Shown here: piece by piece, positions 26,628-27,226 of the stretch
Layout: every line of letters begins with the position of its first letter
Position numbering within the stretch: the stretch's first letter is position 1
Assembly: GCF_000969885.1 (NCBI RefSeq)
Contig: NZ_CP009501.1
Coordinates: forward strand, 1,302,001-1,366,000
Reading direction: 5' to 3'
Source: Methanosarcina thermophila TM-1
GTDB lineage: Archaea > Halobacteriota > Methanosarcinia > Methanosarcinales > Methanosarcinaceae
DNA: 64,000 bases
Notes under the pieces: generated by a model
The model's input: only the letters and a program-made list of their open reading frames with translations
What the model was told of the DNA's origin: nothing
Database searches by the model: none
Made by a program: the position numbers and the translations under genes

Positions 26628-26634
26628 TTATATA
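26628..26634 (+). promoter_or_regulatory. Likely TATA box and palindromic operator for the structured leader
   Basis: TTATATA is followed at once by the 13-base odd palindrome TATTAT-C-ATAATA (26636-26648), which sits where a repressor would block initiation. Transcription would begin near 26655-26660, just before the first hairpin. The regulator is unknown. Confidence 0.5.
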
Positions 26635-26660
26635 GTATTATCATAATATTCATACTGACA

Positions 26661-26800
26661 AAAGAAGTACAGCTTCTTTCAAGAGGCTTTAATCAGCATT
26701 AATTTCCTGCAAAGCAGGAAGGTTCTGTTAAGCGTTAAGGAGGAGAGAACGCTAGAAACAACATTTTGCTGGCAGAGCCTTGTAATTCAGCAAAAGGAGT
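26661..26800 (+). ncRNA. Structured leader or small RNA with four consecutive hairpins
   Basis: Four perfect stems follow one another. They are AAAGAAG/CTTCTTT (26661-26667, 26673-26679), TTCCTGC/GCAGGAA (26704-26710, 26714-26720), AGCGTT/AACGCT (26731-26736, 26748-26753) and TTTTGCTG/CAGCAAAA (26764-26771, 26788-26795). The third loop displays GGAGGAG, a Shine-Dalgarno sequence with no start codon behind it. GTTCT (26722-26726) can instead pair with AGAAC (26746-26750), so two folds are mutually exclusive. A GGAG at 26796-26799 follows the fourth stem. This may be a cis-regulatory leader of the DUF2795 gene or an independent sRNA. Confidence 0.6.
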
Positions 26801-26806
26801 ATGTAA

Positions 26807-26854
26807 ATGCCTCAAATGCTTTCAGGGAATTTAATAGAAATTAAACAAGAGTAA
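26807..26854 (+). CDS. Possible 15-residue leader peptide
   Basis: ATG at 26807 begins a 15-codon frame (MPQMLSGNLIEIKQE, then TAA) seven bases after the GGAG at 26796-26799. It lies between the structured leader and the DUF2795 gene, which starts 12 bases after its stop. An overlapping start-stop ATGTAA sits at 26802. The placement suggests either translational coupling or a sensing upstream ORF. There is no enrichment of a single amino acid, so a classic attenuation peptide is not indicated. Confidence 0.4.
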   Translation: MPQMLSGNLIEIKQE

Positions 26855-26866
26855 AGGGGAAATACT

Positions 26867-27100
26867 ATGGGAAAAGAGACTAAAAGCGAATTTATTGTAG
26901 AACTTCCTATGGGAGCTCAGAAGATATTACAGAGTATGGATTTTCCTGTAAAAAGGAACGAGATTATTGCCCAGGCAAAGAAGAGTGGAGCACTCCCGGA
27001 CATTCTTCGGGAACTCGGCCTGCTACCGGACAAGCAATATAATAGCGCTGAGGAAGTCGCCGAAGAGCTTCATATGATTTATATGGGGGTTCCTTCCTGA
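26867..27100 (+). CDS. DUF2795 small protein
   Basis: The 77-residue protein has the DUF2795 pattern: a short helix, L-Q-S-M-D-F-P-V-K-R-N-E-I-I, then A-K-K-S-G-A, then L-P-D-K-Q-Y-N-S-A-E-E-V near the end. This family is small, soluble and uncharacterised, and occurs widely in bacteria and archaea. It begins at ATG 26867 after GGGGA and follows the structured leader and the 15-codon ORF. A strong terminator follows at 27134. The elaborate leader suggests tight control of this gene. Confidence 0.75.
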   Translation: MGKETKSEFIVELPMGAQKILQSMDFPVKRNEIIAQAKKSGALPDILRELGLLPDKQYNSAEEVAEELHMIYMGVPS

Positions 27101-27133: not shown

Positions 27134-27157
27134 ACCCCCGCAGCAAGCTGCCGGGGT
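27134..27157 (+). terminator. Strong hairpin terminator of the DUF2795 gene
   Basis: ACCCC-C-GCAGC pairs with GCTGC-C-GGGGT around a tiny loop, with one C-C mismatch. It is followed by a pyrimidine-rich tract (TCTTCTTTTCTCTTCCTT). It lies 34 bases after the DUF2795 stop. Confidence 0.75.
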
Positions 27158-27226
27158 GAAAATCTTCTTTTCTCTTCCTTATGCCACCCTACAAGATAAA
27201 CTATTCAGTTATCCTTAATACTCCAC

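Follow-up and report, generated by a model that had tools for sequence, protein, structure and literature searches.

The leader and the DUF2795 gene

The window, i.e. the whole 64-kb stretch of DNA analysed here, lies in the genome of Methanosarcina thermophila TM-1 (3,127,379 bp) and contains an intact DUF2795 gene preceded by a leader and its promoter:

26629-26634, + strand: TATA-like box (TATATA) of the leader/DUF2795 promoter
26633-26656, + strand: operator-like imperfect palindrome TAGTATTATCATAATATTCATACT (TAGTAT...ATACT), between the TATA box and the presumed transcription start
26867-27100, + strand: intact DUF2795 gene, 77 aa (PF11387, E 3.8e-15)

A TATA box and a palindromic operator had been named in the original prediction for this locus, and a TATA-like box and an operator-like palindrome are indeed present. 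The promoter block is kept throughout the genus in our alignments, and transcription from it would start at about position 26657. The palindrome (G000:C1:1328633-1328656) is conserved at this locus and follows a pattern found in six of 31 genomes, in one copy each; as the pattern is confined to the DUF2795-leader locus, the palindrome was rejected as a regulon marker.

The DUF2795 gene possesses its own Shine-Dalgarno sequence (AGGGGA) and starts with the ATG at 26867. Orthologues are present in 30 of the 186 genomes of the order, spanning three genera. AlphaFold predicts a small helical domain (pLDDT 82.5); a PDB search with this predicted fold returned nothing with E below 0.9, and the sequence matches of the protein were designed toroids and a mitoribosomal protein, leaving the fold without a clear solved relative. 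A literature search found no paper pairing Methanosarcina with DUF2795. Directly after the gene, at 27134-27160, lies a C-rich/G-rich inverted repeat (CCCCCGCAGCAAGCTGCCGGGG), possibly the transcript end.

Hairpins, GGAGGAG and the short ORF in M. thermophila

The leader of the window's species contains four perfect stems and a short ORF:

26661-26679, + strand: hairpin 1, 7 bp; confined to this subclade in the alignment
26704-26720, + strand: hairpin 2, 7 bp; matches the FPxK codons of DUF2795
26731-26753, + strand: hairpin 3, 6 bp; loop carries GGAGGAG (26739-26745)
26764-26795, + strand: hairpin 4, 8 bp; specific to the window's species, competing with the long-range helix P3 (see below)
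26807-26854, + strand: 15-codon ORF MPQMLSGNLIEIKQE, with GGAG upstream; out of the ancestral frame

Four perfect stems, a loop exposing GGAGGAG with no start codon behind it and a 15-codon ORF with its own GGAG ahead of the DUF2795 gene had all been predicted, and all are found. The stems measure 6-8 bp and lie within 144 nt, a count reached by 0 of 2000 dinucleotide shuffles (mean 0.7) and by none of 319 sampled 144-nt pieces of the window. The fold of the whole 213-nt leader is unremarkable (z = -1.4; 17 of 200 shuffles equally good). Its MFE fold contains a GUUCU/AGAAC pairing in place of hairpin 3, and the alternative pairing said to destroy the GGAGGAG hairpin is thus real on paper.

Between species, hairpin 2 is mostly kept, the stem of hairpin 3 is weakly supported and hairpin 4 is disrupted in the alignment with the sister species (G006). 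GGAGGAG occurs eight times in the window against 8.7 expected, i.e. at chance frequency; in the alignments the motif of the loop is restricted to the window's species; the sister species has AAGGAGAG in its place, and AAGGATA-like sequences stand there elsewhere. The 15-codon ORF is a chance ORF: its counterpart in the sister species has only 8 codons, and in most other species an ACG-like triplet replaces its ATG. Of the structured leader or RNA switch originally proposed there remain a conserved leader and one covarying helix, while the features from which it had been deduced are not conserved.

Homology of the leader to DUF2795 coding sequence

Nearly the whole leader matches the DNA profile of the array-type subfamily, i.e. 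of the short DUF2795 paralogues that form tandem arrays at the loci L067 and L068:

26665-26842, + strand: relic (pseudogene) of an array-type DUF2795 coding sequence (nhmmer with the array-type CDS profile, E 1.6e-6)

Over the 64-kb window this profile yields two significant matches only, the intact gene (E 7.6e-21) and the leader (E 1.6e-6). The relic spans positions 9-187 of about 189 in the profile, and its ancestral stop codon would be at 26842-26844. Against the same profile, orthologous leaders reach as much as 90.7 bits at nearly full length, and nhmmer with the profile of the orthologue coding sequences finds the leaders with E values down to 6e-13. In a scan of 112 genomes of the family with two covariance models, R1 and R2, one per leader half, the hits were the orthologous leaders and, apart from these, mainly DUF2795 paralogues, within their coding sequences and with strand and register agreeing. 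In the leaders, tblastn with the consensus of the intact protein recovers pieces of the relic in differing frames, among them SIDFPAKKEDVVKR and PEKEYTNAADVAREL. Judged by similarity, the closer relative of the relic is the array-type subfamily and not the gene behind it. Most of the leader is accounted for by its origin in a DUF2795 coding sequence, an origin that the original prediction had missed.

DUF2795 has nine matches in total in the window's genome. At L067, L068 and L026 several short DUF2795 paralogues stand in tandem arrays. Additional copies of DUF2795 survive as decayed 3' halves in L063:475-587 (G007:C1:2945774) and L064:468-582 (G024:C68:29267); both have a downstream-type C-terminus (HRIFVGISS and QIIYMGIPA, respectively) and lie away from any intact partner, and L063 is a very good match to the model R2 (E 3e-15).

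Lesions and loss of coding constraint

The relic has no start codon in register, and stop codons interrupt its pieced tblastn translations. A 2-base deletion near position 80 of the array-type profile is common to nearly all copies and a 1-base deletion around position 132 to many; the remaining insertions and deletions are lineage-specific. Change at the first, second and third codon positions amounts to 0.263, 0.227 and 0.256 in the relic, without third-position excess (p 0.37), and to 0.154, 0.139 and 0.291 in the intact gene, with a strong excess (p 4e-9). The relic evolves near the neutral rate, its mean distance being 0.249 vs 0.287 at the fourfold-degenerate sites of the intact gene. 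Both disabling lesions and a loss of codon-position constraint, as expected of a pseudogene, are present.

Distribution and two-gene arrangement

By DNA similarity the leader is detected in 23 of the 31 genomes of the genus, with the DUF2795 gene after it, and in two neighbouring genera. The relic is retained ahead of the DUF2795 gene in about thirty related species and about 26 of its 28 copies in the three genera are close to complete. The surrounding genes are not the same in some of the species, so that leader and gene travel as a pair.

In G007 (L070) an intact array-type gene lies directly upstream of an intact downstream-type gene, so that intact copies in the same arrangement do exist elsewhere. 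The upstream member is frameshifted in G002 and G013 (L065, L066), with a different lesion pattern, and reduced to a fragment in G004 (L071). With intact, frameshifted and fragmentary stages all represented, descent from a two-gene unit is hard to doubt.

The M. acetivorans-like genome G001 possesses two tandem leader-gene units, the second with a shortened relic (L016b). Large deletions of the relic are tolerated in this copy and in L018. The second unit of G001, L016:2401-2542 (G001:C1:3862177), carries a relic without the P3 region. Two copies of the unit in G012 (L020 and L024, contigs C189 and C58) have unrelated sequence instead of the promoter and the 5' half of the relic.

The long-range helix P3

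One helix of the leader, P3, forms in most species between CGACAUUCUGC and GCAGAUGUCG. In the window its strands are:

26762-26768, + strand: 5' strand of P3 (R2 match 26748-26825, E 5.3e-7; covariation), shortened here
26813-26818, + strand: 3' strand of P3 (same R2 match, 26748-26825, E 5.3e-7; covariation)

Only about six pairs of P3 remain in the window's species. The original prediction had called for covariation of its stems; covariation is found in P3, which is another, longer-range stem, none is seen in hairpin 2, and hairpin 4, as described above, is not intact in the sister species. P3, the sole well-supported helix, was picked on the same alignment on which it was tested, and there both sides are altered in 7 of its 10 pairs, a value equalled by 0 of 500 shuffles. 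In an alignment-free test, pairing within species was better than pairing across species, with a single exception among 5000 permutations. Divergence-matched simulations of neutral evolution along the tree give a mean of about 80% pairing against 90.7% observed, and a mean of 1.8 double-change pairs against 7 observed, a number reached by 0 of 400 simulations. The pairwise covariation G-test with tree-based shuffles is powerless here since two deep clades dominate. The mean energy of P3 is -11.8 kcal/mol in the relics, which are not independent of each other, -4.2 kcal/mol in intact array genes and -8.0 kcal/mol in downstream genes.

P3 is missing from L018 and from L016b, and is thus not indispensable. 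A further helix, P2 (GCUUUAACAGGCAUC with GAUGCUGUUAAGC), and an anti-Shine-Dalgarno switch were both rejected, being conserved yet without covariation.

Origin and possible role of the leader

The leader is best explained as a decayed tandem DUF2795 paralogue that likely serves as an untranslated mRNA leader, its helix P3 being retained or strengthened and probably acting in cis; we put the probability of this reading at roughly 0.8. The comparison of sequences establishes the identity of the relic, its lost coding constraint, the cis linkage and the covariation of P3. A second DUF2795 gene formerly stood head-to-tail upstream of the present gene and then decayed. From the promoter at 26629 the relic would be transcribed as the untranslated 5' part, about 210 nt long, of the DUF2795 mRNA, and translation would start only at the Shine-Dalgarno site of the intact gene. 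After coding had ceased, P3 would have been kept or strengthened; its probable role is a cis effect on the stability of the DUF2795 mRNA or on ribosome access. A more far-reaching proposal is tentative and has, in our estimate, somewhat less than an even chance: before Methanosarcina and the two neighbouring genera radiated, a coding gene may have become a functional non-coding RNA that regulates its tandem sister in cis, its helix having gained strength and having been held by selection ever since coding ended.

The relic might instead be a plain neutral pseudogene, inert ballast between promoter and gene, with P3 as a coincidence or a residue of ancestry. A substitution rate near that of fourfold sites, the absent coding signal and the large deletions tolerated in L018 and L016b all agree with such an origin, but the pairing of P3 is kept and its compensatory changes exceed the neutral simulation. 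Prokaryotic pseudogenes are, moreover, usually removed quickly (PMC2916853), which makes it notable that about 26 of the 28 copies, from three genera, have stayed nearly complete, and on balance we regard mere ballast as unlikely, if still a serious contender.

A leader resembling a riboswitch or thermometer, in which the 5' UUCCUU tract either sequesters the Shine-Dalgarno site of the gene or pairs with the downstream GAAGGAAG, is improbable. RNAalifold does pair the tract with the Shine-Dalgarno region, and both UUCCUU and GAAGGAAG are well conserved; neither pairing covaries, however (permutation 3356/5000 and 3091/5000), and purine and pyrimidine tracts are prone to chance pairing. A search of Rfam at gathering score yields nothing; with the search confined to the region, the sole hit is STnc490, non-significant at E 0.76 and well short of the gathering score of that family. 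Neither a known family nor supported alternative pairings of a riboswitch or RNA thermometer were found.

A small RNA acting in trans on targets through its exposed GGAGGAG, as originally suggested, is very improbable, given that the heptamer sits in a hairpin loop in the window's species but is kept as a seed in no other, has the frequency of chance and is not accompanied by an NrpR operator of the sRNA154 kind. Equally slim are the prospects of a conserved regulatory peptide, encoded by the 15-codon ORF or by a 35-codon ORF starting within the relic, as such ORFs are present in some species but differ in start codon and length among them and lack the third-position excess of coding constraint.

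The decayed tandem paralogue points to a possible route to archaeal leader RNAs, in which a gene is duplicated in tandem, the copy next to the promoter dies and its transcript is reused as an untranslated leader. Since the genus contains intact, half-decayed and fully decayed two-gene units, these steps are directly comparable. For RNA discovery it suggests caution, as hairpins, Shine-Dalgarno-like loops and short ORFs of a leader may be leftovers of coding sequence.

Comparison with known systems

Riboswitches and RNA thermometers share with this leader a structured 5' region ahead of a gene and possible alternative pairings; unlike them, it belongs to no Rfam family, has no conserved core of the ligand type and its switch pairings do not covary. 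Among the intergenic RNAs of the genus the one studied best is Methanosarcina mazei sRNA154, which is located between MM3337 and MM3338 and has an NrpR operator (PMC3177094, PMC5867862). It is likewise an intergenic structured RNA with unpaired loops and genus-wide conservation (PMC5867862, PMC3177094). The leader described here differs in preceding a DUF2795 gene, and kinship was rejected, the GGTA-N6-TACC operator of sRNA154 being absent from the window.

Transcribed bacterial pseudogenes are similar in that a dead coding sequence stands under a live promoter, and transcription without protein would apply here as well. In contrast to them, this relic is old, its lesion being common to three genera, and lies in cis before an intact relative, with a covarying helix.

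Non-coding RNAs can descend from protein genes, e.g. exons of Xist from Lnx3. The DUF2795 leader differs from RNAs of this type in being an archaeal mRNA 5' leader of about 180 nt with no known trans role, and resembles them in the loss of a coding function followed by probable constraint at the RNA level.
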